Positions 2,893 through 26,001 of a stretch of 34,017 bases of DNA are shown piece by piece; positions within the stretch are counted from its first letter, which is position 1, and every line of letters begins with the position of its first letter. The stretch is from contig JAIVHB010000024.1 of NCBI GenBank assembly GCA_020201275.1, positions 1 to 34,017 on the forward strand, given 5' to 3'. The translations under genes were made by a program, and so were the position numbers. The DNA is from Rhodothermaceae bacterium (GTDB lineage: Bacteria > Bacteroidota > Rhodothermia > Balneolales > Cyclonatronaceae). The notes beneath the pieces were generated by a model, which saw nothing but the letters and a program-made list of their open reading frames with translations, ran no database searches and was not told the origin of the DNA.

Positions 2893-2945
2893 TGGAATAT
2901 TTGATTTTGGGCGATCCCCGGGGGGCAGGGGAACGGTTGCCCGGT

Positions 2946-4211: not shown

Positions 4212-4232
4212 AATGTTACCTGGTAAACAGAT

Positions 4233-5123
4233 TCAGGGTGATGTAGCCGTGTGGGCGTCACGGTAATAGTTGTGTTCAAACCATGGCAAAGCAGCGGTAT
4301 TGGCATCCAGAATTTCCTGGAAATATCCGGTAGCAACATCGCTTATGAAAGCCTCCATAGAAGTTTCATCAGGGTAATAATCGATGATATTCTTCCAGAC
4401 AGCCCGGCCGCAAAGAAATCCGCTGGCGCCGGCTGCATTACTGATCTTTATGTTTTCAATAAATTCTTCCGGCTCAACACCGGCACTCAGAATAACCCAG
4501 GGTACGGCTGAAGCATCATTGGTACGCCGGCAGTACTCTTTAATGTCATCCAGATTGTATACAACTTCACCGGCGCTGAAAGACCGGTCCTGATACTCTT
4601 TAACAAAGCTGAGTTCGCCGGGAAATTCAAGCTTGAGCATGTCGACCCGGAACTCCGGATCTGAAAAAACCTGAGCCGCATCAATAACGCGTTCTGCCCA
4701 GTACCAGATAAGCAGTTTAACGGCATCACCACCCGCCAGGGCTGTCTTTTCAACACCCCATGCCGGGATGAGCCGTGAATGGCGTTCATTTCCATTAACA
4801 ATGTTGTATCCGGTTACTTCGATAGACAGCATCACGCCAATTGAGCCGGGTATATGGGGGTATGTTGAGGCATATCCAAAGAGCGGATCGGTCAGGATGG
4901 CACTTGCCATGGGCGACAGGTGCGAAGTTACTATCCGCTTCACTTTGATTAGCCCTTCATCGGCAATATCGGCCGGGTTTTCTCCTGTTCGGGCCGAGAT
5001 CATCTGGCGCAGTGATTTTCTCTGATCAATGGCCAGCATCGAAAAACATCCGCGGCTATCGGCCAGGCGGGCAAGGCGCCGCAGTTTTCCGGTTTTATGG
5101 TCTAGGGTGTTGGTCATTTGCAT
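4233..5123 (-). CDS. LacD/YihT-like class I tagatose-1,6-bisphosphate aldolase, shortened
   Basis: A 296-aa TIM-barrel aldolase-like protein. It has the N-terminal AIDQR motif (31-35), GGDAVKLLIW (131-140), DMLKLEFPGE (161-170), whose Lys164 matches the Schiff-base lysine context of LacD/YihT enzymes, and the C-terminal blocks PWVILSAGV (208-216) and GASGFLCGRAVW (232-243). The expected reaction is cleavage of tagatose 1,6-bisphosphate (or a related ketose phosphate) to two trioses. Only about 28 residues separate GGDAVKLL from the DMLKLEFP lysine, whereas about 60-70 is usual as I recall the family. The segment holding a helix and the next barrel strand with its EP motif therefore seems to be missing in frame. 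ATG 5123 or 5117 are both possible starts. It sits between the kinase (23 bases) and agaS (21 bases). Confidence 0.8.
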   Translation of the reverse strand: MQMTNTLDHKTGKLRRLARLADSRGCFSMLAIDQRKSLRQMISARTGENPADIADEGLIKVKRIVTSHLSPMASAILTDPLFGYASTYPHIPGSIGVMLSIEVTGYNIVNGNERHSRLIPAWGVEKTALAGGDAVKLLIWYWAERVIDAAQVFSDPEFRVDMLKLEFPGELSFVKEYQDRSFSAGEVVYNLDDIKEYCRRTNDASAVPWVILSAGVEPEEFIENIKISNAAGASGFLCGRAVWKNIIDYYPDETSMEAFISDVATGYFQEILDANTAALPWFEHNYYRDAHTATSP

Positions 5124-5146
5124 TTTTGTCGCTGGCTGTAATGTGG

Positions 5147-6157
5147 TCAGTTTTGATGTGTGTCAGGTTCAACGATTGTTAATTCGGGACTGGCATTACT
5201 GCCGAAGCGTTCAAAATTCTTCAGGTTCTCAAAGGCTGCCGTTCCACCCGCTCTTGTAGTTGAGAAAGCACCGGCCAGTACCCCGGCTTTCAGGCAATCC
5301 TCAATCGGTGCCGTCTTCAGATATCTGGAGAGGAATCCGGCGTTGAAACTGTCGCCGGCACCTACGGCATCAACAGAATCAACAGTTACAGTTTGCAGTT
5401 CATAAAGTGTGTTCCCGGTGCGTGCCTTAATTCCTTTTATTCCGCAGGTGGCAACCACAAGACCGGCATAACCGGCAAGTTTTGCCAGCGCATCGTCAAC
5501 ATTGCCGGTCCGGCTGATGCGCATCGCTTCATCGTCGTTTGGCAGAAAGACATCCACATAGGGAAGTATGTCAAATATCTCCTCGCCCCATTTTTCATCC
5601 GGATCCCAGTTTGTATCAAAGGAGGTAGTAAGACCAAGTGCCTTTGCCTTTTTGAAAAGGCCGGCAGCACCCTCCCGCAGGCCTTTTTGAAGATAGTAGG
5701 ATGAAATGTGAAAATGCCGGTGCTTTTCAAGCAGTTCTTCTGAGATATCTTCAGCCGTCAGAAAATCCATTGCTCCGGGATAGGTTATCATCCCGCGGTC
5801 ATTACCAATGGTATAGATTACAGTAAGCCCCGTCTGCACACCCGGTGTATCCAGAATGTGAGATGTGTCGATGCCCCGGGATTGCAGTATTTCCCTGATT
5901 TTGTTCCCGTACAGGTCGTTGCCAACCCGTCCCGCAAAACCCGTACTCAGGCCAAGTGAGGATGCATTTGAAGCCATTATAGCGGAGGAACTGCCCAGGG
6001 TAAGGGTCATGCCTTCCGATATGCGCTCCTTGCCGAGTTCGGGATGACCCTGTACCTGTTCCATGATAAGGTCCATGTTCAGCTCGCCTGCAACAAGTAA
6101 ATCCTTTTTGGCCGGAACCCCCGGTTGTTCTGTAAAGCTTTCTGTTATAGATGACAT
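5147..6157 (-). CDS. PfkB-family sugar (phosphate) kinase
   Basis: A 336-aa ribokinase-fold kinase, first gene of the minus-strand operon. An upstream ATG at 6178 is in frame, but ATG 6157 is preceded by AGGAG with 6-base spacing and is preferred. Key features are VAGELNMDL near the N terminus, DTNWDP (181-186), NDDE (207-210, the N-x-x-E Mg/phosphate motif) and DAVGAGDSFNAGF (263-275), with Asp269 as the expected catalytic base and GAGD as the anion hole. In this setting the likely reaction is tagatose 6-phosphate to tagatose 1,6-bisphosphate. A kinase acting on the free sugar cannot be excluded because no other sugar kinase is present. PfkB substrate specificity cannot be read from these motifs. 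Confidence 0.88.
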   Translation of the reverse strand: MSSITESFTEQPGVPAKKDLLVAGELNMDLIMEQVQGHPELGKERISEGMTLTLGSSSAIMASNASSLGLSTGFAGRVGNDLYGNKIREILQSRGIDTSHILDTPGVQTGLTVIYTIGNDRGMITYPGAMDFLTAEDISEELLEKHRHFHISSYYLQKGLREGAAGLFKKAKALGLTTSFDTNWDPDEKWGEEIFDILPYVDVFLPNDDEAMRISRTGNVDDALAKLAGYAGLVVATCGIKGIKARTGNTLYELQTVTVDSVDAVGAGDSFNAGFLSRYLKTAPIEDCLKAGVLAGAFSTTRAGGTAAFENLKNFERFGSNASPELTIVEPDTHQN

Positions 6158-6499
6158 TTGAAACTCCTGAAAATGCACTTCAGACTTGAAAAGCGAAGTG
6201 TAATTGCATTAATGTTAACGAAATGAAATTTCAATTACAATATTACGAACAAATAAAAAGCATAATCAAAAGAATATGAAATGCATTGAACTATATTTTT
6301 GCCCTAACCCTAACACTATTGTGATCATCAGGATGTGCTAATATTCTGTGTTCAACCAAGTTAATGATGAGTTACGAATTAATCTATTAAGTGTTATTAT
6401 TTGCTTGCGATACAAAATGAATATTATTGTTTTATGGAAATATCAGGCGGTTGATTATTTTCAGATGAATATAAACATAAGTTCAAACGGGCCAATTCT
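6158..6499. promoter_or_regulatory. Divergent control region between the kinase operon and the DeoR gene
   Basis: A 342-bp AT-rich spacer with no plausible gene. It contains an 8-bp inverted repeat, TGTAATTG (6199-6206) and CAATTACA (6232-6239), with a 25-base spacer, so arm centres are 33 bases apart (about three helical turns). A smaller GAAAT-gaa-ATTTC palindrome (6220-6232) sits inside it. On the minus strand TTTG (6270-6267) and TAATATTG (6245-6238) are 21 bases apart, loosely resembling the Bacteroidota TTTG / TAnnTTTG promoter; the second element overlaps the right arm of the repeat. That arrangement would suit repression by the adjacent DeoR-family protein. The regional role is likely from gene orientation; the individual sites are guesses. 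Confidence 0.5.
6164..6168 (-). promoter_or_regulatory. Ribosome binding site of the PfkB kinase gene
   Basis: AGGAG on the minus strand, 6 bases before ATG 6157. It lies downstream of the alternative ATG at 6178, so it decides the start. It is one of the few good Shine-Dalgarno sequences in this window. Confidence 0.7.
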
Positions 6500-7264
6500 A
6501 TGTACAGTGTTGCTGAAAGGCGTAATAAAGCATTGAAAATGCTAAAAGAAGACGGGCAGGTTTCGGTTGCCGAACTCAGTGAGTTGCTGGATGTTTCGGA
6601 AGTAACCATACGGAAGGATCTGCAGTACCTCGAAAAGAGAAATCTTCTCATCCGAACGCACGGGGGTGCAATGCAGAATGACTATCTGGTGCATGACCAG
6701 CATTTTGAAGAGAAAAGTAAACATTTCCATGAGGAGAAAAGAAGAATAGGCGAAGCTGCAGCCAATCTGGTGAAGGATGGCGACACCCTGATTCTGGATG
6801 CCGGTACCACCATCATGCAGATCGCCCGGCAACTGCACGGAAAACGCAAGCTGACCATTCTCACCTCGGCCGTAAATGTAGCAATGGAACTGAACAGGAT
6901 TCCCGATATTCAACTCATTATCCTTGGCGGGGTTATCCGTCAGACATCAGCGGCTGTTGTTGGTCCCTACGCCGAATCTATGGTCAGTGAGCACTTCTGC
7001 AGCAAATTATTCCTCGCAGGCGACGGATTCGACCCCGAATTCGGCCTTACTACTACCAATGCACTCGAAGCCCACCTGAACAGGGTGATGATCCGGTCGG
7101 CCCAGGAAACCATTGTTGTGATGGATTCATCCAAATTCGGCAAGCGCGGACTCAGCCGCATATGCGGTGTAGAAAGCATCAGTACTATTATTACCGATTC
7201 AGGAATTCCGGATGGCATCAGGAGAATGCTCGAAGAAAAAGAAGTCAACCTGATCATCGCCTGA
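6500..7264 (+). CDS. DeoR-family transcriptional regulator (AgaR/GlpR type)
   Basis: A 254-aa protein of standard DeoR length. The N-terminal winged helix-turn-helix is clear: VAERRNKALKMLKEDG, VSVAELSELLDVSEVTIRKD and the LIRTHGGA wing. The C-terminal sugar-phosphate-sensing domain carries GDTLILDAGTT, LTSAVNVAMEL, LILGGVIR and LAGDGFDPEFGLTTTN. Members are usually repressors relieved by a phosphorylated sugar intermediate. Being divergent from the kinase-aldolase-AgaS-GatZ operon, it most likely controls that operon and itself, and perhaps the outer-membrane genes downstream. No Shine-Dalgarno is visible, but the start MYSVAERRNKAL fits the family's normal N terminus. Confidence 0.93.
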   Translation: MYSVAERRNKALKMLKEDGQVSVAELSELLDVSEVTIRKDLQYLEKRNLLIRTHGGAMQNDYLVHDQHFEEKSKHFHEEKRRIGEAAANLVKDGDTLILDAGTTIMQIARQLHGKRKLTILTSAVNVAMELNRIPDIQLIILGGVIRQTSAAVVGPYAESMVSEHFCSKLFLAGDGFDPEFGLTTTNALEAHLNRVMIRSAQETIVVMDSSKFGKRGLSRICGVESISTIITDSGIPDGIRRMLEEKEVNLIIA

Positions 7265-7608: not shown

Positions 7609-8532
7609 ATGAAATCGAAGCTTTGGCTCTTGTATGCGATAATTACAACTGTTTTCTGGGGTGTTTGGGGAGCGCTGATAGAAATACCGGAGAAGGCGGG
7701 CTTTCCGGCCACGCTCATCTATGTGGTCTGGGCGTTCACTATGATACCACCCGCACTGGTAGCGTTGAAAATCATCAACTGGCGTTTTGACTTCCGAACA
7801 AAATCCATCATGCTGGGTATGACAGTCGGGATCCTGGGGGCTGGCGGGCAGCTTATCCTTTTTCAGACCCTGGCCATCAGCCCCGCGTATCTGGTCTATC
7901 CTTTCATATCCATGTCGCCGATTGTAACCATCCTCATGTCGCTCATTCTTCTGAAAGAACGGGCCAACGTATATGGCTGGGTCGGTGTAGGCCTCGCACT
8001 CATTGCCATTCCGCTGCTTTCCTATTCACCGCCCGAAAATCAGGTGGTGGCCAATATGTGGTGGGTTATACCCGCCAGTCTTGTGTTTCTTGCCTGGGGT
8101 ACCCAGGCTTATGTGATTAAAGTGGCCAACAAGTCGATGAAGGCAGAGAACATCTTCTTCTATATGATGGTGTCAGGTCTACTTCTGGCTCCGGTAGCTA
8201 TACTGATGACCGACTTCGACAAAAACATAAACTGGGGATTTGAGGGTTACGGTTATTCATTCTTTATCCAGATATTAAATGCCGTTGGTGCCCTGTTCCT
8301 GGTGTATGCATTCAGATACGGAAAGGCAATGATCGTATCGCCAATGACCAATGCTGTAGCACCGGTTATTACGATTGTACTTTCTCTGATGATTTATGCT
8401 GTAATACCGCACACAATTACCCTGATGGGTATGATCTTTGCTGTTTCTGCTGCGATACTGCTGTCGCTCGAAAAAGACGAACCGGCCGTTAATGGTAAAA
8501 ATACTATACCGGTTGAAAATCCGGACCTGTGA
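7609..8532 (+). CDS. EamA/DMT-superfamily membrane transporter
   Basis: A 307-aa, very hydrophobic protein with about ten predicted membrane segments arranged as two EamA-like repeats. The N-terminal half includes FWGVWGALIEIPEKAG and ends around MSLILLKERANVYGWVGVGL; the second half begins near MWWVIPASLVFLAWGTQAYV. The SLILLKER-type turn after an early helix pair is typical of EamA permeases. It starts at ATG 7609 with GGGAGG upstream, and the C terminus is a charged cytoplasmic tail. Drug/metabolite transporters move diverse small molecules; its place beside the sugar operon and DeoR gene suggests inner-membrane sugar or amino-sugar uptake, but the substrate cannot be read from sequence. 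It is the only inner-membrane transporter in the locus. Confidence 0.85.
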   Translation: MKSKLWLLYAIITTVFWGVWGALIEIPEKAGFPATLIYVVWAFTMIPPALVALKIINWRFDFRTKSIMLGMTVGILGAGGQLILFQTLAISPAYLVYPFISMSPIVTILMSLILLKERANVYGWVGVGLALIAIPLLSYSPPENQVVANMWWVIPASLVFLAWGTQAYVIKVANKSMKAENIFFYMMVSGLLLAPVAILMTDFDKNINWGFEGYGYSFFIQILNAVGALFLVYAFRYGKAMIVSPMTNAVAPVITIVLSLMIYAVIPHTITLMGMIFAVSAAILLSLEKDEPAVNGKNTIPVENPDL

Positions 8533-8767: not shown

Positions 8768-11700
8768 ATGAAACGTAAAACCAATATATCACAATTAAAT
8801 CTTCGCCTGACACAGATAGTATGCCTGTTGTTTCTGCTGTCGGTTGCTGCCACCGAAGTAGTAGCCCAGTCAAGTGGCCGCATTTCCGGGCGTGTTATGG
8901 AACAGGCTACCGGAGAACCACTGGTAGGTGTGAACGTCTTCATTCAGGGCACTACAATGGGAGCCATGTCCGATGTTGAGGGCTACTACTATATTATGAA
9001 CATCCCGCCGGGCACGTACGATATCACGGTGTCAATGATCGGCTTTACGAGGCAGATCGTTCAGGAATTCAGGGTTCACCTTAATGAGAACCATACACTC
9101 AATTTCGAACTTACCGAAGAGACGATCATGGGCCAGGAAGTGGTTGTTATGGCCGAAACCGAAAGGGTAAAGCTCGACGTCTCCTCAAGCCGTACTCTGA
9201 TCACCTCACAGAGCATTGCCGCCAGTCCGGTTTCCAATTTTGAGGAAATACTGGCAAATTATCCTGGTATCACACTTACTGCCGGCTCTGAAGGTTCGGG
9301 TATTATAATCAGGGGTGGAAATATTAATGAGACCAATATTGTGGTGGATGGGTTGTCGACCCGCGACATGAGAACCCAGCAACCCAATACTACACTCAAC
9401 CTGACGGCCATTAATGAGCTCGAAGTAATTAGTGGTGGCTTTACTGCCGAGCACGGAGGGGTCAGGTCGGGTATGGTGAACGTGGTAACCAAAGAGGGCC
9501 GCACCGACCGTTTTGATGCAGTGGTCGATTTCAGGATTTCCCCGCCCCAGCAGAAGCATTTTGGCCCGAGCCCGTACAGCCTCGACGGCCCGTTCTGGCA
9601 GGTCTATGCAGGCGAACATGCTATGACCGGTGTTAGCACCGACATGGTCAACAACGGGCAGTACCCGTTCACGTTCATTGGCTGGAATGAATTTGCCCGG
9701 CAGCGTTTGAGCGACGGGAACGCGGAAACCGATATGACCCCTCAGGAGGCACTTGAAATCTGGAAATGGCAGCACCGGCCACGCGAATATGCCAACCGTG
9801 CAGACTATATACTTGATATGACGCTGAGCGGACCCATTCCATTCCTGAAGAATACAACCTTCATGGCCTCTCAACGCTACGACGATCTGATGCTGGTTTA
9901 CCCGCTGAGCCGCGATAATTCGATTGCTTCATCAACCCTGTTTAAAATCACATCACACCTCGGTAATGGCCGTAAACTCAGCATCCATAACGGATATCTG
10001 CTCAAAAGGGGTGTCAGCTCCGGTGTGTACAGCAACAGTATTGGTATGATCGACGGTACACGACAGGGTACTTCTTATGCCCGGAACAGTCTGCAGGTTG
10101 AACATCTCTGGCACGACGCCGCCATGAACCCGATAGAAACCTGGCATTACCGTGGTGGTTTGCAGTACAACCATGCCCTCAGTTCCCGGACCTACTATGA
10201 AGTGGCTTCCGAGTTTACAGCTTACCAGACAAAGCAGGAACCGACTGGCGTGAGAGATATCACATGTATCAAAACTATCGGAAACAGATGTTTTGATGAA
10301 GCACCGTTCGGATATGTTTCCAGCGAAATCGGCCGTATAGGTGAAACGTATGACCTGCTGAATGAATTCATGATGTCGGGCGGCGGCCGCGGGCGCGACA
10401 ATTCCCGTTACTGGACATTGGGAACCAGTTTCAATATCACATCCCAGGTCAACAGATTTTATCAGGTCAAGGCAGGTGCCGATATTGAATATGCACGGTA
10501 CAGTGAGCGGCGGGAACTGAACAATGAAGCCTCCACACACACACGTGAAGAGCGCCCCCACTACTGGACCTATTTTAATTCAACACCCCTCAATACTTCG
10601 GCATTCGTACAGAACAGGCTCGAATTTGGGGCCATGATTGCCAATATCGGTATCAGGGCCGATTACATGTGGTATGGTGAACGGGCGTATGAACTCGATT
10701 CTGATCTTATTTTCAATCAGCTGCCCTATACCCTGGCAAGATACCGTGAAAATGAACTTTCGTTCTCACACCTGCAAACAGGCGATAAAGTATCGAAATT
10801 TTACCTGAGTCCGAGGCTGGGTATATCACACCCGATAACCACAACGAGCAAGGTATTCTTCAACTACGGACACTTCTACCAGCCTCCGGTTCTCGATCAG
10901 CTCTATACGGTGCGCCCCCTGGGTCAGGGAGCAATTATTCCGAACCTGAATGCAGAATGGCCAAAAACCATCTCATATGAGGTTGGTTTTGAAATCGGAC
11001 TGCTTGAGGATTATCTGCTCTCTTTTACCGGATATTATAAAGATGTTCAGAACCAGCTGAGCCCGATCAATATCGTATCATGGGATCAGGACAACGACAT
11101 CAGAACCTTCGAGAACAATAGCTACGCCGACATCAGGGGTATTGAGATGCGTTTCCAGAAAGTGGTTGGACGCTGGCTGCAGGGATGGTCTGCACTTGAG
11201 TACAGCACAAGGAGTACCGGTTTCACCGGATTCAGGTATATCTTTGAAGACCCGTTGAGAGCACGCGATCAGCGTGAAACCATCAATCAGCAGCGGCAGG
11301 AGCCCAGACCGTCTATTTCCGCCAATATTACCATTATGACCCCGCCTGATTTCGGTCCGCAATGGTTTGGCAATAACTTCTTCGGTGGTTGGAGACTTAA
11401 TATCAACCAGGCATGGAGTGATGGCGGCGAATTTCTCACAAATCCCGAGGCACGTGTTGGCCAGCGCCGTTATGTGCCTGTTATCGATTACTGGAACACC
11501 GATATGCAGCTGAGCAAGAACTTCTACTTTGGCAGCACAGTCATCGGTTTCTTCGCCCAGGTTACCAACCTGACCAATTACCGGGGATTCCCGAACCCGC
11601 AAAACTCGATCCGCTATCGCGAATCACTGAGATTCCCGTGGTATCAGGGTGATCGTAAAGGTAACGACAAGTGGGGTGAATGGGATAAAGACCATATCGA

Positions 11701-11773
11701 TCTGGGCTATCACAGCTGGAATCAGTTTATCAATCCACGACACTTTTCATTCGGGTTCCGGATGCAGCTCTGA
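8768..11773 (+). CDS. TonB-dependent outer-membrane receptor with N-terminal carboxypeptidase-regulatory-like domain
   Basis: A 1001-aa protein with a signal peptide (residues 1-34, ending VVAQS). A CarboxypepD-regulatory-like beta-sandwich spans about 38-120 (ISGRVMEQATGEPLVGVNVF, GYYYIMNIPPGTYDI). The plug domain lies at about 130-245 (GIIIRGGNINETNIVVDG, EVISGGFTAEHGGVRSGMVN) and a large beta-barrel runs to the C terminus. Such receptors import oligosaccharides or other large ligands using TonB/ExbBD energy. No SusD-like partner follows; instead it heads a run of secreted and envelope genes with 45-50-base gaps. The 235-bp upstream spacer is AT-rich and presumably carries the promoter. The substrate is inferred from context (galactosamine-type glycan), not from the sequence. 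Confidence 0.93.
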   Translation: MKRKTNISQLNLRLTQIVCLLFLLSVAATEVVAQSSGRISGRVMEQATGEPLVGVNVFIQGTTMGAMSDVEGYYYIMNIPPGTYDITVSMIGFTRQIVQEFRVHLNENHTLNFELTEETIMGQEVVVMAETERVKLDVSSSRTLITSQSIAASPVSNFEEILANYPGITLTAGSEGSGIIIRGGNINETNIVVDGLSTRDMRTQQPNTTLNLTAINELEVISGGFTAEHGGVRSGMVNVVTKEGRTDRFDAVVDFRISPPQQKHFGPSPYSLDGPFWQVYAGEHAMTGVSTDMVNNGQYPFTFIGWNEFARQRLSDGNAETDMTPQEALEIWKWQHRPREYANRADYILDMTLSGPIPFLKNTTFMASQRYDDLMLVYPLSRDNSIASSTLFKITSHLGNGRKLSIHNGYLLKRGVSSGVYSNSIGMIDGTRQGTSYARNSLQVEHLWHDAAMNPIETWHYRGGLQYNHALSSRTYYEVASEFTAYQTKQEPTGVRDITCIKTIGNRCFDEAPFGYVSSEIGRIGETYDLLNEFMMSGGGRGRDNSRYWTLGTSFNITSQVNRFYQVKAGADIEYARYSERRELNNEASTHTREERPHYWTYFNSTPLNTSAFVQNRLEFGAMIANIGIRADYMWYGERAYELDSDLIFNQLPYTLARYRENELSFSHLQTGDKVSKFYLSPRLGISHPITTTSKVFFNYGHFYQPPVLDQLYTVRPLGQGAIIPNLNAEWPKTISYEVGFEIGLLEDYLLSFTGYYKDVQNQLSPINIVSWDQDNDIRTFENNSYADIRGIEMRFQKVVGRWLQGWSALEYSTRSTGFTGFRYIFEDPLRARDQRETINQQRQEPRPSISANITIMTPPDFGPQWFGNNFFGGWRLNINQAWSDGGEFLTNPEARVGQRRYVPVIDYWNTDMQLSKNFYFGSTVIGFFAQVTNLTNYRGFPNPQNSIRYRESLRFPWYQGDRKGNDKWGEWDKDHIDLGYHSWNQFINPRHFSFGFRMQL

Positions 11774-14725: not shown

Positions 14726-15922
14726 ATGAAGAATCCTATGACACAACTAATCCGGCAGATGATAGTGCCTGCCACACTCATACTGGCCATATTCATTGCG
14801 GCAGCCTGTGAAGGGCCGGTGCATCCCAAATACGACGGTGAAAACCCTGATCCTTTTCCCACCGGTTCTGAACCGCCGGTAGTAACCGAAGTTACCCCCG
14901 ACCGGGGATTTGCCGGCGACGAAATTGTTATAACCGGCAGCGGGTTCCGTCCGTCGGCAGAGCAGACAATGGTTAACGTTGGTACGGCATCGGCAACAAT
15001 AGTATCGATAACGGAAACAGAAATTGTTGCCAGATTGCCGGTTAATGAAAACGGGAATCAGAAAGTACGCGTTGCCATATGGGGATCGGAAAATTGGAGT
15101 AATGAATTGTCAGTATTCTACCTCTCTGATTTCGTGGAGGTGAAATATAATATTTTGACCCCGAGGGGCGTAGCTGTTGACGATACCGGCAATCTCTATA
15201 TTGGATCTTTTAACGATCAGGCTGTTTACAAAATTGACGCGGTCGATAGTGTTAAAACAACCCTTACAGATATTCCTGTTACCGGAACCATGGAGTTCGG
15301 ACCGAACGGATGGCTGTATGTGGTAACAGCGTCAGGTCTGTCTCGTATCTCGCCCGATGGCGCAACTGTTGAAGATGTTGTTATCCTGAGCGGGGTAAGA
15401 GATTTTGACTGGGCTCCCGATGGAAGTATCTATCTGCTGCAGGTTGCACGGATTCACCGGTTCGACGGATCTGCGACCGAAGAGGTGGCAACCGTCCGGC
15501 AAGCGCAAAAATTACGGGTTTTTGATGGTCACGTCTATGTTACTGAACTTGCTAACTCTCGTGTGGCCCGTTTCGAAATAACCGGCAGTACACTTGGTCC
15601 CCATGGTATCGCCTTCCAGCAGAATACACCTCTGGCCGGCCTTGATCTGGCTGCATCCGGCAATATATATGCTTCGGCTTTTGTACGCGATTATGTGTTC
15701 AAGGCTGCTCCCGACCGGGTTAACGACAGTGATATTACCGAAATACCAAATGAAGAAGATCGTGCCAACCCATTCCGTAAAATTGATATCAGGGTCGGTG
15801 AAATATATATGAACAATTCGGTGATGTACCTGGTGCAGGATCAGGTAGCATCCGGAACAGTTGGTCGAATCTGGAGAATTTTTATCGATGAGCGCAATGC
15901 ACCACGTTATGGGCGGGATTGA
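14726..15922 (+). CDS. Lipoprotein with IPT/TIG domain and beta-propeller (NHL/SMP-30-like)
   Basis: A 398-aa protein from ATG 14726 (MKNPMTQLIRQ), with GGAG 9 bases upstream. It has a lipoprotein signal with IAAAC as the probable lipobox. A proline-rich linker leads into an IPT/TIG immunoglobulin-like domain (PVVTEVTPDRGFAGDEIVIT and GSGF, about residues 50-135). The remainder consists of repeated propeller blades (GVAVDDTGNLYIGSF, MEFGPNGWLYVV, DWAPDGSIYLL, GLDLAASGNIYASAF). TIG-type lipoproteins beside TonB receptors often act as surface glycan-binding proteins, in the manner of SusE/F-type accessory lipoproteins. That role is inferred here. It ends 2 bases before the next start, so the two genes are probably co-translated. 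Confidence 0.8.
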   Translation: MKNPMTQLIRQMIVPATLILAIFIAAACEGPVHPKYDGENPDPFPTGSEPPVVTEVTPDRGFAGDEIVITGSGFRPSAEQTMVNVGTASATIVSITETEIVARLPVNENGNQKVRVAIWGSENWSNELSVFYLSDFVEVKYNILTPRGVAVDDTGNLYIGSFNDQAVYKIDAVDSVKTTLTDIPVTGTMEFGPNGWLYVVTASGLSRISPDGATVEDVVILSGVRDFDWAPDGSIYLLQVARIHRFDGSATEEVATVRQAQKLRVFDGHVYVTELANSRVARFEITGSTLGPHGIAFQQNTPLAGLDLAASGNIYASAFVRDYVFKAAPDRVNDSDITEIPNEEDRANPFRKIDIRVGEIYMNNSVMYLVQDQVASGTVGRIWRIFIDERNAPRYGRD

Positions 15923-15924
15923 CC

Positions 15925-17514
15925 ATGCTATCTGTAACACTATGTTCAAAATGTCTACATAACCCTGTAAAATGGCTCAAAACTGTAGTTCTTTTAATCC
16001 CGTTTTCCCTGCTTTTAAGTGTAAATGCATACGGCCAATCGGATGTAAGCCTTAGTCCGGAACCTGACATTCTGTTTCCCCGTGCTTTTGGAATTGCCGT
16101 AAACCAGGTTGGTTATATGGAAGGCGGTTCGCTGGGTGAAGATGGCGGGCCATGGAGAGCCGGTATCCGGCGCGACATGGATGTGCGCGATTACCGGCCG
16201 ATGGCCGAAGTTGGCCGTGAAGTCGGAATCAGGTTCATGAACCTGTTCGCGCTTGCCGAAATGGACCGTCTTAATATTGTGGCCACCTTGCCCCACGCCC
16301 GGCCCGAAGGCCACGCTTTCGATAATTCGGCCAGAATTAAACCGGAACAGATCGAAATCATGAAATATGTTCATGATCAGGCAGCTTTCATAGAACTCGG
16401 GGTTACCGGCGTTGGCCACGAATGGTGGGTCGACGGTGAAAGAACACGGTCAGAATGGTACAACCTGGACCACAAGGAGCCACGGCCCGAAGCCATGATG
16501 CGCCGGCATATGGATGTGATCCGCAATATACTCGGCCAGTACGGCCTGTCATCAGAGAACGGCCATTCGTTCCCTCAGTCTATGAGTGCCCTGGGTTACT
16601 ACTGGAACCCCGATGGCCCGTACAGTGCCGGCAGCATTTTCAGTGAATATGGTGTACGCTACGTGAATACCAAATTCAGCATTATCCCCGAACTGAACCC
16701 GCCACCCGAGAAGAGCGGTGGTTTCGATCAGGGTGTGCTTGTACTCGACAGAAGCGCTTACGGTAACCTCTGGCATACCTATGATGACCCGCCGCATGAG
16801 CCTGCCGGGAATTATGAAACGGATCTGATCGAAAGCCACTGGGCAAACTGGCTGGCTCAGGACGATTTCCTTCAACCAGCCGTAAACCAGCGCTGGATTG
16901 ACTATTTCCGCACCATTCAGGCCTATCCGTACCGCTATCTTGCCAAGAACAGCGAACAACTCTATTCGCAGTGGCTGTACAAAGAATACACTGATGTAAC
17001 CCTGACTGCACCCGGCAAGGTCCGCATCGACAACCGTTCCATGCCCGACATCACCTATGAAAAGGGAAGCCTCGGGAATATGGTGCTTTCCGTACCTTTG
17101 AGCGATGGCAAACATGTGAGTGCGGTAACCATTAACGGTAAACCGGTCGCTGCCTGTTTCGAAGAGGCCGGCTACGGATTTATCTATCTTCCATCGCTGC
17201 AGCAACAGATCTATGAAGTCGAATGGCAGATCGGAGACACCCCGGTAACCGGTACCATCAATAATTCAGGCACATACAATGTATACGATGTTCAGCCCAC
17301 CGACGCCGGATATCTGTTTACTATCCGCATGTATGGTACACAGGATGTCCGTTTCCGTGTTGAAGAGGGATTTGAAGCAGTAACGGATCATGACGGATTC
17401 ACTATTCATGAGAGTTCATACGACCGAGGTAACCGGGAACTGGTTATCTCACTGCAGGGACGGGATGTACAGGGAGAAACCGGGGTCATCGAGCTGAGAA
17501 AACAGACCCGGTGA
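15925..17514 (+). CDS. Secreted deacetylase-like protein, paralogue A (predicted inactive)
   Basis: A 529-aa protein from ATG 15925 with a signal peptide ending near VNAYGQS. The N-terminal ~350 residues look like a divergent polysaccharide-deacetylase (NodB/DUF2334-like) TIM-type domain: a first-strand motif after LFPRAFGIAV, then VRDYRPMAEVGREVGIRF, GVTGVGHEWW, ENGHSFP and GYYWNPDG. Two small beta-sandwich regions follow to the C terminus. It is a close tandem paralogue of the next gene and aligns without gaps over the key motifs. Where paralogue B has Asp52-Asp53 this protein has Asn60-Gln61, and where B has His153 it has Thr161; only His165 of the H-x3-H pair is kept. I therefore predict loss of metal-dependent catalysis and perhaps a binding or regulatory role. 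The fold assignment is from motif pattern and is moderate. Confidence 0.72.
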   Translation: MLSVTLCSKCLHNPVKWLKTVVLLIPFSLLLSVNAYGQSDVSLSPEPDILFPRAFGIAVNQVGYMEGGSLGEDGGPWRAGIRRDMDVRDYRPMAEVGREVGIRFMNLFALAEMDRLNIVATLPHARPEGHAFDNSARIKPEQIEIMKYVHDQAAFIELGVTGVGHEWWVDGERTRSEWYNLDHKEPRPEAMMRRHMDVIRNILGQYGLSSENGHSFPQSMSALGYYWNPDGPYSAGSIFSEYGVRYVNTKFSIIPELNPPPEKSGGFDQGVLVLDRSAYGNLWHTYDDPPHEPAGNYETDLIESHWANWLAQDDFLQPAVNQRWIDYFRTIQAYPYRYLAKNSEQLYSQWLYKEYTDVTLTAPGKVRIDNRSMPDITYEKGSLGNMVLSVPLSDGKHVSAVTINGKPVAACFEEAGYGFIYLPSLQQQIYEVEWQIGDTPVTGTINNSGTYNVYDVQPTDAGYLFTIRMYGTQDVRFRVEEGFEAVTDHDGFTIHESSYDRGNRELVISLQGRDVQGETGVIELRKQTR

Positions 17515-17568
17515 TCAATGCTGATGGAAATGTGAACTGTTCAATTATTTATGACGCGAAAGACCACA

Positions 17569-19140
17569 ATGAAAAGATCAGCGATAGTGATTTCGGTAAG
17601 CCTGCTTGCGGCATTTGCCATTACCTCATCCCAGTCGGTTATAAATGCCCAGGGAACAGAACATCCGGTAGAAGTGAGATCTGACGGCATCCTCTTTCCA
17701 AAACCATTCGCCATAGCCATCGACGACCTGGGTTGGATGGATGGAAGCTCCCTTGGTGATGAAGGCGGTCCGTGGCGTACGGGTCTTCGCAGGGATTTTG
17801 ATGTAAGGGACTATATAGCGGTGGTTGATATTGCCAAAGCGACCGGCGTGAGGCTTCAGGCAGCATTTATTCTGAGTGAGCTCGACCGGCTTAATATCAT
17901 TGGGCAGTATCCTCATATGACCTATCAGCAGGGTAAATGGGATAACACCCGTAATATCGGCCCGGATCAGATCGAAATTATGGATTATGTGAAAGACAAT
18001 GCCGCATGGCTGGAATTCGGGCTGCACGGCGTGGGCCACGAATTCTGGGATGAAAACGGCAAACGTACAAGGGCCGAGTTTTATAACACCGATGAGAACA
18101 GCCCCAGGCCCGAACATCTGATGAACAAAAACCTGGATGTTTTCGAACAGATAATGGCGCAATATGGTCTGACCCCCGAGAACGGACACTCGTTTCCCGA
18201 GAGTTTTGTTCCACCCGCCTACGGGTATTACTGGAATCCCGATGGCACCTACAGCACGGGTTCGATATTGTCGGAAAGAGGTCTGAAATATGTGAATACC
18301 CAGCTCAACTACGTCAGTGAACTCAATCCGCCGGCCGACGGTTCGGGTGGATTTGATAATGGTGTACTGGTTATCGACCGTCATAACTACGGCAATCCCT
18401 GGTATGAGCTGGAATCGTTGCCGCGTACACCGATCGGTACCTATCAAACCGAAATCATTGAAACACACTGGCCCAACCTGCTGGCAGCCGACGATTTCCT
18501 TCAGGAATCGGTGAACAACCAGTGGGCGGAATTTTACCGGTCTGTACAGGAGCATCCCGATTACTACCTGGCCAAAAATACCGAGCAATTCAACTCCCAG
18601 TGGCTGTACCGGCGGTATGTAACGGTTACCGAAGAGCTTGCAGGCCGGGTGCAGATCGATGCCCGCTCCATGCCGGCCGAGGCGTATGAGCGTGCCGACA
18701 TGCTGGGCAATATGGTTCTGGCCCTGAAGCTTCCGGAAGGCAGCTACATCAGCAAGGCCTTAATCGATGGTAATCCGGTTCCGGGCTTCTTCAGCGATGC
18801 AGGCTATCAGTTCATCTACCTGCCGAAGCTGGAACGCCGCAGTTATACCCTTGAATATGAAACCGGTCCGGCCCCGGTTGCCGAACGGGTGGAAATAAAC
18901 GGGACCTACAATGTGTACGGTGTTACCCAAAACCGGGACCGCCTGCAGGTCGATCTGCAGATGTATGGCACCCAGGATGTCCATATATATACGCAACGCG
19001 AGCCCTCGTCGGTTGTCTTCGATAACGAGCGGCTCAGTGTAATGGAAACCGGATATGATGCCACTAAAGGCCTTTTCACCGTAAAAGTACACGGTCATGA
19101 CATCCAGGGTGAACGCGGTATTCTAACGCTGCAGTACTGA
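17569..19140 (+). CDS. Secreted putative polysaccharide-deacetylase-like enzyme, paralogue B
   Basis: A 523-aa protein starting at ATG 17569 (MKRSAIVISVSLLAAF; ATG 17551 also possible), with a signal peptide ending near INAQG. The NodB-like signature residues are all present: AIAIDDLGW with Asp52-Asp53 (catalytic base and metal Asp position), and GLHGVGHEFW with His153 and His157 (metal H-x3-H). ENGHSFPES and YGYYWNPDG follow, then two C-terminal beta domains ending in MYGTQDVHIY and VHGHDIQGERG. Metal-dependent deacetylases of this fold remove N- or O-acetyl groups from glycans in the periplasm or outside the cell. Context suggests an N-acetylgalactosamine-containing substrate, by inference only. 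It lies 54 bases after its paralogue. An alternative is a DUF2334-type protein with another hydrolytic role. Confidence 0.72.
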   Translation: MKRSAIVISVSLLAAFAITSSQSVINAQGTEHPVEVRSDGILFPKPFAIAIDDLGWMDGSSLGDEGGPWRTGLRRDFDVRDYIAVVDIAKATGVRLQAAFILSELDRLNIIGQYPHMTYQQGKWDNTRNIGPDQIEIMDYVKDNAAWLEFGLHGVGHEFWDENGKRTRAEFYNTDENSPRPEHLMNKNLDVFEQIMAQYGLTPENGHSFPESFVPPAYGYYWNPDGTYSTGSILSERGLKYVNTQLNYVSELNPPADGSGGFDNGVLVIDRHNYGNPWYELESLPRTPIGTYQTEIIETHWPNLLAADDFLQESVNNQWAEFYRSVQEHPDYYLAKNTEQFNSQWLYRRYVTVTEELAGRVQIDARSMPAEAYERADMLGNMVLALKLPEGSYISKALIDGNPVPGFFSDAGYQFIYLPKLERRSYTLEYETGPAPVAERVEINGTYNVYGVTQNRDRLQVDLQMYGTQDVHIYTQREPSSVVFDNERLSVMETGYDATKGLFTVKVHGHDIQGERGILTLQY

Positions 19141-19257: not shown

Positions 19258-20355
19258 ATGAAAAATCTGCTTTTACCCCTTTTATTCTCAGTTTTTGTGC
19301 TGTATCCCGGCCTGGACCGTGCAATTGCACAAACTGCCCCGGAAGAGATCCTGCTCCGGGACTTCCGGCCGGTATCGATCTATAAAATCCCGGTAACCGA
19401 GGTTAGTAAGGCCCGTTACCCGGTCATTGATGTGCATTCTCATCCCTATGCCGGATCACTCGCAGCTGTTGACCAGTGGGTGCGGAACATGGATTCGGTG
19501 AATGTGGAACGAACGGTCATACTCACCTATTCGGTGGGTGAACGTCTCGACTCACTGATGGCGGTATATGGCCGCTACCCGGACCGTTTCGAGGTTTGGT
19601 GCGGTCTTGATCTGGCAAACCACCAGGAGCCCGGTTTTACGCAGAGAGCGGTGGCCGAACTGGAACGCTGCAAGGAGATTGGTGGCAAGGGCATCGGGGA
19701 GATGTCGGACAAGGGCTGGGGTTTACGCTCCGGTACGGTAACCGGCCATGGTATGCATCTGGATGACCCTCTGCTGCAACCTGTACTTAAAAGAGCGGGT
19801 GAGCTGGGGTTGCCGATCAACATCCACGTGGCCGATCCCATCTGGATGTACATGCCCATGGATTCGACCAACGATGGCATGATGAATGCGTTCAAGTGGC
19901 GGCTCGATAACCGGCCCGACATCGTTGGGCACAGCGGCATGATCGATATTCTGGAACGGGCGGTGAGCAGGAATCCGGAAACCACCTTCATCGCCGTACA
20001 TTTTGCCAATCTCAGCTATGATCTGGAAAGGCTGGCTGCCATGCTCGACAAGTACCCGAATCTGTACGCCGATATATCGGCCAGGTACGCCGAAACGGCA
20101 ACAATACCCAGGTTCATGCGCGATTTTTACATTCGCTATCAGGACCGTCTGCTCTATGGTACCGATATGGGTTATAACCCGGGTATGTACCGTACAACAT
20201 TCAGAATCCTTGAAACAGCAGATGAGCACTTTTATGCTCATGATATGTTCTCGTACCATTGGGCACTGAACGGGTTTGACCTGCCGGATGAAGTACTCAG
20301 AAAAATCTATCGTGATAATGCTTTGAAACTATTTGAAAGTTTAAGAAGCCAATAA
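19258..20355 (+). CDS. Exported amidohydrolase-family (Amidohydro_2-like) metal hydrolase
   Basis: A 365-aa protein with a signal peptide ending near RAIAQTA. The TIM-barrel metal-site residues are easy to find: HxH at His60/His62 (VIDVHSHPY), His190 (PINIHVAD), His248 (IAVHFAN) and Asp303 (LLYGTDMGYN). The ending KIYRDNALKLF is typical of PF04909 proteins, which include lactonases, decarboxylases and other hydrolases, mostly cytoplasmic; export is less usual. It follows the deacetylase-like pair after 117 bases and may be co-transcribed. Its substrate is unknown. A sugar lactone or an amide/acetyl linkage released from the same glycan is possible, but nothing in the sequence decides. Confidence 0.83.
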   Translation: MKNLLLPLLFSVFVLYPGLDRAIAQTAPEEILLRDFRPVSIYKIPVTEVSKARYPVIDVHSHPYAGSLAAVDQWVRNMDSVNVERTVILTYSVGERLDSLMAVYGRYPDRFEVWCGLDLANHQEPGFTQRAVAELERCKEIGGKGIGEMSDKGWGLRSGTVTGHGMHLDDPLLQPVLKRAGELGLPINIHVADPIWMYMPMDSTNDGMMNAFKWRLDNRPDIVGHSGMIDILERAVSRNPETTFIAVHFANLSYDLERLAAMLDKYPNLYADISARYAETATIPRFMRDFYIRYQDRLLYGTDMGYNPGMYRTTFRILETADEHFYAHDMFSYHWALNGFDLPDEVLRKIYRDNALKLFESLRSQ

Positions 20356-22015: not shown

Positions 22016-22102
22016 GAAAGTAATACATTCTCACCCATTTTATAACAAATGCGGTCTATAAAACCCGACGGAAACTGAGCACAGTTTAAATTGAAAAGCA
22101 CC

Positions 22103-23794
22103 ATGAGATTAGTACTATTCCTGATTTGTCTGTTGTTAATACCGAATCAACTGCGCGCGCAACAGCTTGCCGAAATCGACTATCTGCCCTCCGAAGATAT
22201 TATTACCAACCCCGAACGTGGGTTTCATGTGTTTACAGAGTGGCGGCCGGGCTACCCATCACTCACAGTACAACAACTCCTCGCTATCCGTGACGACACC
22301 CGCAGCCTGGTTATGCGAAATTATACACTTTCCTCGTGGAAGAATGCCCCTTTAACAGAAACCTTCCTGAATATTGTACGGCAGGATTTTAACGCGGCAC
22401 GCCAGGCTGGTGTCAAGGTAGTTCTCCGGTTCCGCTATTCCACCAACATCGGCGATCCGGATGCGCCACTCGACATCATTAAAACACACCTTGATCAGCT
22501 CAAACCCGTTTTTGAAGAACATTATGATGTGATTGCCCTGATGGATGCGGGTTTTATCGGGGCCTGGGGTGAGTGGCATTCATCCACAAATAATCTGACC
22601 AATACAGCTTCACGCAGGGAGGTTCTGTTCAAAATCCTGGAAGTGCTGCCGGAGCAACGGTTTGTGAACGTCAGAACTCCGGGTTACAAAATGTTCATTT
22701 ACAATAATTTTACCGCGCTGCCCGATGAAGAGGCCTATACGGGAACCAACCGATCCCGGACCGGGCATCACAACGACGGATTTCTGGCCAGCAGCACCGA
22801 CCTGGGTACATACGGCAATGTTGAATATGAAAAGAATTACCTGAACCAGGAGAACAGATTTGTTCCCATGGGCGGGGAAACAGGCGGTGTGAGCGAGGGC
22901 GAATATTATAAATGTGACAACGCCCTGCAGGATATGGCCTTTCTCAGATGGTCGCACCTTAACAGGGGATGGTACGGTCCTACGTTGCAGAGCTGGATCA
23001 ACGATGGCTGCATGCCTGAAGTCGAAAAAAAACTGGGTTACAGGTTTGTACTGCAGAATGGCAGATACTCCTCTGAAGTAGCACCGGGTAATCTGTTCAG
23101 CTTCGAACTGAATCTGGTGAATGAAGGCTGGGCTTCACCATTCAATGCCCGTGGTTTCAGGGTAGTGCTCAGAAGCCTGACCGACCCGGAACAGATTTAT
23201 GAGGTAAATCCACCGGAGGATCCGAGGCTGTGGCACACCGGTGAACCGGTTGTACTGGCGCACCAGATAGGCATTCCAGCAGGTATGCCGGAAGATCTGT
23301 ACGAACTCATGCTTCATTTCCCCGACCCGGAACCCGAATTGTATAACCGGCCCGAATATGCCATCCGCACTGCAAACACCGGGACCTGGGAAAGTGAAAC
23401 CGGTTTCAATTCACTCGGGCACGTAGTTCTGGTTACTGGAGATGCCGAAGGTGAAGAGTATACCGAAGGATTGATTTTTCAGCCGGAGGGTACCAGCACA
23501 GGTTTGGAACAAGCCGGGGTGTCATACAGCCACAGCTTTTCACTGCTCCAAAACTATCCGAATCCGTTCAATCCCTCCACAGTAATACCCTTCGAGCTCG
23601 ACGAATCGATGGAAATTCGCCTTGAAGTGTTCAACATTCTTGGCCAAAGGGTTGCCATACCTGCAGAAGGACGGTTTAATACAGGCAGTCACTTTATTTC
23701 ATTCAGCGCTGAAGGATTGCCGGCCGGTGTTTATATGTACAGACTTACTGCCGGTAACAACAGCAGGACCAACTCAATGCTGCTGCTTAAATAA
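22103..23794 (+). CDS. DUF4874/DUF4832 secreted protein with T9SS sorting domain
   Basis: A 563-aa protein from ATG 22103 (MRLVLFLICLLL); an in-frame TTG at 22091 is less likely. The signal peptide ends near LRAQQ. The N-terminal domain matches DUF4874, a glycoside-hydrolase-like TIM barrel: IITNPERGFHVF, VVLRFRYS, and AGFIGAWGEWHSS with Glu157 in the position typical of a catalytic acid. The following DUF4832 beta-sandwich includes GYRFVLQNGRYS and LVNEGWASPFNARGFRV. The C-terminal sorting domain has LLQNYPNPFNPSTVIPF, LPAGVYMYRL and SMLLLK. These domains are found in surface proteins linked to glycan metabolism, without a proven activity that I know of. Here it may be an endo-acting glycosidase for the same substrate as the GH36-like enzyme. 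It is preceded by the structured leader. Confidence 0.85.
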   Translation: MRLVLFLICLLLIPNQLRAQQLAEIDYLPSEDIITNPERGFHVFTEWRPGYPSLTVQQLLAIRDDTRSLVMRNYTLSSWKNAPLTETFLNIVRQDFNAARQAGVKVVLRFRYSTNIGDPDAPLDIIKTHLDQLKPVFEEHYDVIALMDAGFIGAWGEWHSSTNNLTNTASRREVLFKILEVLPEQRFVNVRTPGYKMFIYNNFTALPDEEAYTGTNRSRTGHHNDGFLASSTDLGTYGNVEYEKNYLNQENRFVPMGGETGGVSEGEYYKCDNALQDMAFLRWSHLNRGWYGPTLQSWINDGCMPEVEKKLGYRFVLQNGRYSSEVAPGNLFSFELNLVNEGWASPFNARGFRVVLRSLTDPEQIYEVNPPEDPRLWHTGEPVVLAHQIGIPAGMPEDLYELMLHFPDPEPELYNRPEYAIRTANTGTWESETGFNSLGHVVLVTGDAEGEEYTEGLIFQPEGTSTGLEQAGVSYSHSFSLLQNYPNPFNPSTVIPFELDESMEIRLEVFNILGQRVAIPAEGRFNTGSHFISFSAEGLPAGVYMYRLTAGNNSRTNSMLLLK

Positions 23795-23922: not shown

Positions 23923-26001
23923 ATGCTGAAGAAATTATTACTCATCATCCTGGTTTTGATAACATCCTGGACCCTGGCGGGTTGCGGCAAAACCGAACCG
24001 GTTGTGGAAACGTCTCAGTTCCGGCTGGAATTCAACGATCTGATGCACAGCCGCATCATCTCAAAAACCACGGGTTCAGAAATGGAATTTTCCGGATTCT
24101 CACCATCCGAATATCTGATTGTAGATGGAACAGAAGTACGGGATTTTGAGCTGGATAAGGTCACTAAATCGGGTGTTGACGACAGAATGGGTGGCGGTAC
24201 CACCTTCACATTGACAGGTACGAATGGTGCTGTCGAAAAAACGGTGACGGTTCGCACCTACGATAATTTTCCCAATACGGCAGTATTTGATGTAACCTAC
24301 CGGAATACGGGCAATGATGATCTGGTTGTGGATGTTTGGGTAAATAACCATTACCGAATTGCCAATTCAGCCTCCGGTTACGAATACCCGTTCTGGAGCT
24401 ATCAGAGCGAATCGACCAGCCACCGTAACGATTGGGTACTGCCGGTTTCAGCAGGTTTCAGTCAGCAGAACTACATGGGCATGAATAATTCCGACTACGG
24501 CGGAGGTACTCCCGTCAGCAGTCTCTGGCGTCCCGACGGCGGCCTGGCAGTCGGCCATCTTGAGATGGTGCCCAAGCTGGTAAAAATCCCGGTCAGCATG
24601 GAAACAGCAGAAAATGCCGACATTCACATCCGTTATGATAAGGGGGTTGAACTGCCTGCAGGCGGGTCTTTCGAAACGTTCACAACCTTCGTACGGGTAC
24701 AGGAAGGTGACTATTTCGCAACCCTCGTCGATTATAAGGATATGATGGTAAAACGCGGTATCTCTTTTCCTGAGATTAACGACAGTGCTTATGAAACACA
24801 GTGGTGCGCATGGGGCTATGAGCGCACATTTACCATGGAGCAGGTCTACGGTACCCTCCCTAAAGTTGGCGACCTCGAATACCACTGGGTGGTTCTCGAC
24901 GATGGCTGGCAGACCAACGTGGGCGACTGGGCCCTGCACCCCGACAAATATCCGGCCGGCGATGCCGACATGCAAAAATTTGTTCAGACCGTACATGACG
25001 CGGGCTTCCGGTCCAAACTGTGGTGGGCCCCTCTTGGTATGCATCCCGATTCCGATATCTATGCATCCAACCCCGAATACCTGATACTCGACAAAGATGG
25101 TGAACCCGTTAACATCACCTGGTGGAATGTGCACTACATGTGCCCGGCTTACCAGCCTGTGGTCGACTACCACACCGATCTTGTGCGTACCATGATGGAT
25201 ACCTGGGGCTATGAAGGGCTTAAAATCGATGGTCAGCACCTCAACGCAGCACCTGAATGCTTTAACCCGGCTCATAACCATGCCAGACCGGAAGAATCCC
25301 ATGAAGCCATGCCGGCATTCTTCAAGGCGATCTATGATACCGGAACATCCATTGTGGATGATGCCCTGATCGAAATTTGCCCCTGCGGTACCGCCTATGC
25401 TTTCCATCTGCTGCCTTATATGACACAGGGCGTATCGTCCGACCCGACAAGTTCCTGGCAGGTGCGCCATAAGGGCCGTACCCTTAAGGCTCTTATGGGC
25501 CGTAATACACCGTTTTTCGGCGACCATGTTGAGCTGAGCCGCGGCGGATCAGATTTTGCCTCACAGGTTGGAACAGGCGCCATTATTGGTACCAAGTTCA
25601 CCTGGCCGGTAGGAGCAGGGCCGGATCCGGAAACCGACCTCACTCCCGAGCGGGACGATTACTGGCAAAAATGGGCCGATATCTATCAGTCGAAACGTCT
25701 TGCAGAAGGTCAGTATATGGGTGAATTGTACGACATAGGATTTTACCGCCCTGAAACCCATGCCATCAGCAAAGACGACGCCATGTACTATGGTTTTTAT
25801 GCCGATCAGAACCCCGGCAGGGACGTATCCGATATCGGCGATTATGACGGTACTGTTGAGCTGAGAGGTCTGCAGGCCGGCAGAACCTATGAGGTTACCG
25901 ACTATGAAAACAATGTAAGCTTTGGGACTGTGGAAGGGCCAGTAGCTGAATTAAACGTAACATTCACGAATCATCTTTTACTCCAGGCTGTTCCTAACTG
26001 A
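23923..26001 (+). CDS. GH36/melibiase-like alpha-galactosidase or alpha-N-acetylgalactosaminidase, lipoprotein
   Basis: A 692-aa lipoprotein (lipobox LAGC, near residue 20). Residues ~25-290 form an N-terminal beta-supersandwich. The catalytic TIM barrel follows, with WVVLDDGWQTNVGDW (Asp326-Asp327), the nucleophile-strand motif YEGLKIDGQ (Asp436 as candidate nucleophile), EICPCGTA, and SSDPTSSWQVR (Asp507 as candidate acid/base). A short beta-domain ends the protein. This order matches GH36/GH-D-clan retaining alpha-galactosidases; the clan also includes alpha-N-acetylgalactosaminidases. With an AgaS-type operon nearby, a terminal alpha-GalNAc or alpha-galactosamine substrate is attractive but unproven. 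The lipid anchor would place it in the envelope, probably on the cell surface. A strong terminator follows. Confidence 0.85.
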   Translation: MLKKLLLIILVLITSWTLAGCGKTEPVVETSQFRLEFNDLMHSRIISKTTGSEMEFSGFSPSEYLIVDGTEVRDFELDKVTKSGVDDRMGGGTTFTLTGTNGAVEKTVTVRTYDNFPNTAVFDVTYRNTGNDDLVVDVWVNNHYRIANSASGYEYPFWSYQSESTSHRNDWVLPVSAGFSQQNYMGMNNSDYGGGTPVSSLWRPDGGLAVGHLEMVPKLVKIPVSMETAENADIHIRYDKGVELPAGGSFETFTTFVRVQEGDYFATLVDYKDMMVKRGISFPEINDSAYETQWCAWGYERTFTMEQVYGTLPKVGDLEYHWVVLDDGWQTNVGDWALHPDKYPAGDADMQKFVQTVHDAGFRSKLWWAPLGMHPDSDIYASNPEYLILDKDGEPVNITWWNVHYMCPAYQPVVDYHTDLVRTMMDTWGYEGLKIDGQHLNAAPECFNPAHNHARPEESHEAMPAFFKAIYDTGTSIVDDALIEICPCGTAYAFHLLPYMTQGVSSDPTSSWQVRHKGRTLKALMGRNTPFFGDHVELSRGGSDFASQVGTGAIIGTKFTWPVGAGPDPETDLTPERDDYWQKWADIYQSKRLAEGQYMGELYDIGFYRPETHAISKDDAMYYGFYADQNPGRDVSDIGDYDGTVELRGLQAGRTYEVTDYENNVSFGTVEGPVAELNVTFTNHLLLQAVPN

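Follow-up and report, generated by a model that had tools for sequence, protein, structure and literature searches.

Agd3, the galactosaminogalactan deacetylase of family CE18, acts on a GalNAc polymer, and each of the single mutations D377N, D378N, H510A, H514A and H668A abolishes its activity (PMC7229062). GalNAc chemistry is also shared by PelADA from Bacillus cereus and by PelA (CE21) (PMC13254593). In F. plautii, FpGalNAcDeAc and FpGalNase form a two-step pathway, and FpGalNase mutated at C513 or D532 is nearly inactive (PMC11762096). SIR_1591 from Streptococcus intermedius, a DUF4832 hydrolase, disrupts Pel-dependent aggregates (PMC12345266). Here we analyzed a stretch of 34,017 nucleotides from a Rhodothermaceae bacterium (contig JAIVHB010000024.1; hereafter the window) that encodes two neighboring deacetylase-like proteins, paralogues A and B (Table 1). 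On balance, we favor a reading in which B de-N-acetylates GalNAc so that galactosamine can be released and used, A is a probably inactive binder of GalNAc glycans, and both belong to a NodB-type family.

The genes for A and B lie on the same strand, 36 bases apart. A begins either at a TTG (15919) or, two codons on, at an ATG (15925). Numbering from the TTG for A and from the ATG at 17551 for B, residues N60-Q61, T161 and H165 of the first-pass annotation become N62-Q63, T163 and H167 in A, and D52-D53, H153 and H157 become D58-D59, H159 and H163 in B. That annotation described the two proteins as collinear paralogues, which is borne out by BLASTP: 241 of 514 aligned residues are identical (47%), with 8 gap positions and an E value of 4e-175. 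It further described B as having intact metal-site residues and A as carrying NQ/T replacements in otherwise preserved surroundings. Both descriptions hold across the relatives, as the DD/H signature is found in all ten B-type proteins and the same NQ/T replacements, located within conserved stretches, in every one of the six A-type proteins (six genomes); the contrast is thus more than chance. Two features had been missed. The motif-3 loop of A is two residues shorter (SFPESFVPPA in B, SFPQS--MSA in A), and A retains the second His of HxxxH (H167), the later Arg (R277 in B, R278 in A) and the late His (H306 and H307).

Table 1. Features of the window, with positions counted from its first nucleotide.
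Feature	Position	Strand	Remarks
GatZ/KbaZ-like	1618-2892	-	catabolic block 1618..6178
AgaS-family isomerase	2946-4211	-	catabolic block 1618..6178
LacD-like aldolase	4233-5123	-	catabolic block 1618..6178
PfkB kinase	5147-6178	-	catabolic block 1618..6178
AgaR-type repressor	6500..7264	+	260.6 bits, cut-off 260
EamA-family permease	7609..8532	+	kept in sister loci; candidate sugar importer
SusC-like TonB-dependent transporter	8768..11773	+	
Paralogue A	15919..17514	+	secreted, deacetylase-like; predicted catalytically dead; N62-Q63, T163 present; H167, R278, H307 retained
A motif 1, N62-Q63 replacing Asp-Asp	16102..16107	+	numbering from TTG 15919
A motif 2, T163 replacing first metal His; H167 retained	16405..16407	+	
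Paralogue B	17551..19140	+	secreted, predicted metal-dependent de-N-acetylase; D58-D59, H159-x3-H163, P216, R277, H306
B motif 1, D58-D59, predicted base and metal ligand	17722..17727	+	by analogy with Agd3 D377/D378 and PelADA D262/D263
B motif 2, HGVGH, H159 and H163, predicted metal ligands	18025..18039	+	
B H306, predicted catalytic acid	18466..18468	+	29 residues past invariant R277
Secreted Amidohydro_2 protein	19258..20355	+	candidate metal ligands conserved
DUF4874-DUF4832 T9SS-sorted protein	22091..23794	+	domain found in SIR_1591
GH36-like lipoprotein	23923..26001	+	full-length homologue of F. plautii alpha-galactosaminidase; K-x-D, Cys and Asp of FpGalNase kept

The AgaR, AgaS, PfkB and LacD genes and the putative DUF4874-DUF4832 hydrolase identify the locus as a cluster for galactosamine/GalNAc catabolism, and this neighborhood supports the earlier guess that GalNAc is the substrate. 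A PorV-family protein is also encoded in the cluster. The GH36-like protein matches FpGalNase structures over its whole length (E 2e-88), and the equivalents of FpGalNase D463, C513 and D532 are kept in all nine GH36 orthologues; that of Y464 is not. The neighbor gene therefore combines the full-length similarity with the catalytic and specificity residues expected of a GH36 alpha-galactosaminidase. The GatZ/KbaZ-like protein is divergent, scoring 84 bits against an equivalog cut-off of 707, and is encoded together with the LacD-like aldolase; a role as Tag6P kinases has been proposed for AgaZ-type proteins (PMC12118421). T9SS-type tails are encoded at 11901-13622 (a weak match) and 20628-21788, and both genes are conserved in the clusters of two relatives, G449 and G469.

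We propose that secreted B would strip the acetyl group from GalNAc of an alpha-linked glycan, which may be Pel-like, another GalNAc-rich polymer or the ends of glycans. GalNAc would thus be turned into GalN outside the cell, the GH36 galactosaminidase would then free galactosamine, and this would be imported, phosphorylated and passed through AgaS to tagatose phosphates. Because deacetylation by B would precede import, a GalNAc-6-P deacetylase (NagA/AgaA) would not be needed. Of the 12 family-bearing genomes, only G424 has a NagA above the curated cut-off, and in G722 a long match stays below it. None was found in the window's genome, an absence that is no proof in an assembly that is 95.7% complete. 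G469 carries A and GH36 but neither B nor NagA above cut-off, which leaves its deacetylation step unaccounted for.

A signal peptide is present in seven of the ten B proteins, including that of the window, and absent in those of L002, G774 and G705, where B may therefore be cytoplasmic. The genes lacking it (L002:9992-11449, L063:10046-11503 and L064:8682-10133) have neighbors 6 to about 50 bases away, which leaves scant space or none upstream for such a peptide, and their GH36 neighbors carry lipoprotein-type signals. Two of these three genes are in genomes without NagA over threshold, as would be expected if B mainly substituted for NagA on free or intracellular GalNAc, not on a polymer. We consider this substitution unlikely as the main role, given the signal peptides of the other seven B proteins and the lipoprotein-type signal on a galactosaminidase that needs free amines.

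Residues D58, D59, H159, H163, P216, R277 and H306 are invariant in all ten B proteins; beyond the three His among them, the B family has no invariant His. B thus has the complete NodB-type residue set of Asp-Asp, HxxxH, base-holding Arg and catalytic His, spaced D59-100-H159 and H163-53-P216-61-R277-29-H306. From this order and spacing, together with a weak profile match to DUF2334, we infer that B is a NodB-type deacetylase in which the metal would be bound by D59, H159 and H163, while D58, kept in place by R277, would act as the base and H306 as the acid.

Membership of DUF2334, CE4 or CE18, as considered by the first-pass annotation, did not stand up to profile searches. Pfam hmmscan assigned no deacetylase family to A or B at E<=1, or to 12 members at E<=10. 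The CE4/PF01522 polysaccharide deacetylase HMM matched neither A, B nor the 12 members, CE18 Agd3_CE (PF25115) is absent from the Pfam matches of the same proteins, and the DUF2334 (PF10096) HMM does not match the family; the DUF2334 match of the window's own genome sits on another contig. Even at loose thresholds, NCBIfam assigned neither A nor B to a deacetylase family, and when B alone or either of two family profiles was searched against PDB sequences, nothing or only chance matches came back. In 198 genomes, the window's included, Agd3_CE was matched nowhere, nor was the control, which precluded building a CE18 profile. The RxxPY-type Arg of CE4 motif 3 is absent from B, which has SFPESFVPPA with R277 as the only invariant Arg past it. 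Without a sequence match in Pfam, NCBIfam or the PDB, B lies outside CE4, DUF2334 and CE18 by the available tests.

Profiles were also compared by local hhalign. B and DUF2334 scored 34.1 in one direction, the strongest profile-profile score of those tried, with none of 150 column shuffles as high, and 23.4 in the reverse direction, with 6 of 150 as high. The corresponding E values, about 8e-4 in one direction and 0.03 in the other, are weak and asymmetric, and real decoys without a shared T9SS tail mostly scored <=21, one reaching 31.7. HGxxH and SF[IV]PP are collinear in the two profiles. As shuffles were beaten 150/150 one way and 144/150 the other, the relation is only suggestive. AlphaFold2 models from four-sequence alignments had mean pLDDT of 55.8 and 50.0, with about 30-50 in the catalytic domain and only the C-terminal beta-domains confident, and Foldseek with the poor-quality B model found nothing at E<=0.001. 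B might be another metal hydrolase or a glycosidase-like barrel that applies its DD and HxxxH to the same sugar: the fold and profile evidence for NodB is not significant, and GH36 and GH98 enzymes are among the best Foldseek matches, none of them significant. Since the order and spacing of the residues are close to those of PelADA, and the best profile relation tested is to DUF2334 with its collinear motifs, we regard such a fold as improbable. A distinct family (L041-L045, L050, L052, L055), whose members are about 520 aa long, match DUF2334 weakly and end in a conserved DW[KR]NR motif, is common in the window's order.

Of the 71 sites invariant in B, only seven differ in all A proteins: D58N, D59Q, W62Y, F156L/M, H159T, A175S and V220 (deleted). 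Six of the seven lie within 5 residues of motifs 1-3 (hypergeometric P 0.0003), and the three catalytic replacements alone give P 0.011, the motif windows having been picked after seeing the sites in both cases. These replacements support the loss from A, fixed across the lineage, of the predicted catalytic base and of two metal ligands, one Asp and one His. As single mutants of the corresponding Agd3 residues are inactive, the N-Q-T combination of A should be dead.

A is nevertheless maintained. The A-type proteins form one clade (support 100/99), and the closest members show omega (dN/dS) of 0.034-0.052 at pS of 0.56-0.69. Such strong purifying selection indicates that A is fixed and selected, and rules out a decaying pseudogene. 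Loss of catalytic residues within a conserved, selected lineage marks A as a probable pseudoenzyme, and the contrast drawn earlier between an enzyme and a pseudoenzyme is supported, B having the complete residue set. A would derive from a single duplication, seen so far in the window's bacterial order alone, after which the base and metal site were lost. Because its lineage has been preserved in related bacteria despite this loss, A probably binds sugar without cutting it, and may be kept as a surface or periplasmic GalNAc-glycan-binding protein of these loci, with or without B. Three or four of the six A proteins have a lipobox-like Cys, consistent with surface attachment; LLGC in G427 departs from a strict lipobox, and the window's A has none.

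Conservation of this kind could also reflect a change of chemistry, with N62-Q63-Y66, T163, H167, R278 and H307 of A forming a new, metal-independent active site for the same glycan. The replacements are identical in all six A proteins, A is found alone, and it is at least as conserved as B (192 invariant columns, counted from fewer and closer sequences than for B; omega 0.03-0.05). However, a binding pocket would show equal conservation, and the motif-3 loop of A is shortened as well. To our knowledge, no NodB-type enzyme works without the Asp and HxxxH ligands, and a new active site in A appears doubtful to us. The best reading of A remains a secreted, probably inactive paralogue that would bind GalNAc glycans.

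The family is rare: with the window's genome counted each time, it occurs in 3 of 396 genomes of the phylum and in 7 of 245 of the class. It has no relatives in the viral and plasmid collections searched. B-type relatives were found in a Saprospiraceae MAG, a Planctomycetota MAG, G283, G009, G449, G725, G722, G774 and G705, and A-type relatives in G449, G427, G424, G469 and G419; A and B are the only copies in the window's genome. Two genomes have both, four have A only (G427, G424, G419 and G469) and eight have B only, the two MAG records having been checked for a second copy within the fetched stretch. In G449 (L018), A and B follow each other as in the window, with a gap of 6 bases; the remaining A and B genes stand alone. 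Pairing is thus not obligatory, and the single-copy loci rule out an obligate pair. The earlier suggestion that A generally serves as a heterodimer partner or regulator of its neighbor fails in the same way, as four of six A genes are in B-less genomes and eight B genes are A-less. An obligate heterodimer or regulator-enzyme pair, for which the adjacency and same order in both genomes with A and B would speak, could apply solely where the two co-occur and is very unlikely.

In the A-only loci of G427, G424 and G419, a GH109-type gene, of the alpha-N-acetylgalactosaminidase family, lies beside A. Four such genes are Pfam-confirmed in G427, and those of G424 and G419 are putatively assigned from neighbors with near-identical N-termini, position and length. 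At L019:5168-16659, a lone A is flanked by four GH109-type and two Amidohydro_2 genes, with a DeoC/LacD-type aldolase nearby. Wherever the flank of an A locus is intact, A or its A-B pair has an Amidohydro_2 gene next to it. Besides the A+B and A-only loci, one B-only locus also has this gene, which is therefore not an A-specific partner; the product of the window's copy could act as an additional amide hydrolase in the pathway.

The family of A and B is undescribed, and we recognized no paper in the open literature on it or on inactive polysaccharide deacetylase paralogues. More tentatively, we suggest that it may constitute a new carbohydrate-esterase family in which one duplication gave rise to two proteins. 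One would be an active GalNAc de-N-acetylase that precedes GH36, is independent of FpGalNAcDeAc and replaces intracellular NagA; the other would be a fixed, secreted pseudoenzyme, a stand-alone glycan binder that also serves GH109-type loci. If true, this would add a so far unclassified deacetylase family whose substrate is predicted, extend the GalNAc-deacetylase/galactosaminidase pathway beyond the gut Firmicute of its discovery, and provide a clean example of a lineage with an ablated active site that became fixed in carbohydrate-uptake loci. New pairs of GalNAc deacetylase and galactosaminidase would also attract practical interest, for the conversion of blood group A and the dispersal of Pel biofilms.

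Several known systems resemble parts of this locus. The NodB-clan proteins of DUF2334 share the collinear HGxxH and SF[IV]PP motifs with B, but their family HMM does not match it. Agd3 has the same DD, HxxxH, late Arg and late His (PMC7229062), but differs in its spacings (132, 99, 55) and in its unmatched Pfam domain, and no CBM87-type domain was detected in B. The C-terminal DUF4832 domain of SIR_1591 (PMC12345266) is common to the window's DUF4874-DUF4832 protein, which, unlike SIR_1591, is T9SS-sorted. PelADA and PelA are closer to B, with DD, HxxxH, Pro, late Arg and His in the same order, and the PelADA spacings of 87, 51, 53 and 30 are close to the 100, 53, 61 and 29 of B (PMC13254593); B differs in its lack of a PDB sequence match and in its locus, which is catabolic, not biosynthetic. 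The F. plautii pathway is paralleled by a full-length FpGalNase homologue and by B, the deacetylase candidate of the same locus (PMC11762096). As B has no detectable similarity to PDB chains, it would be a first-step enzyme non-homologous to FpGalNAcDeAc.
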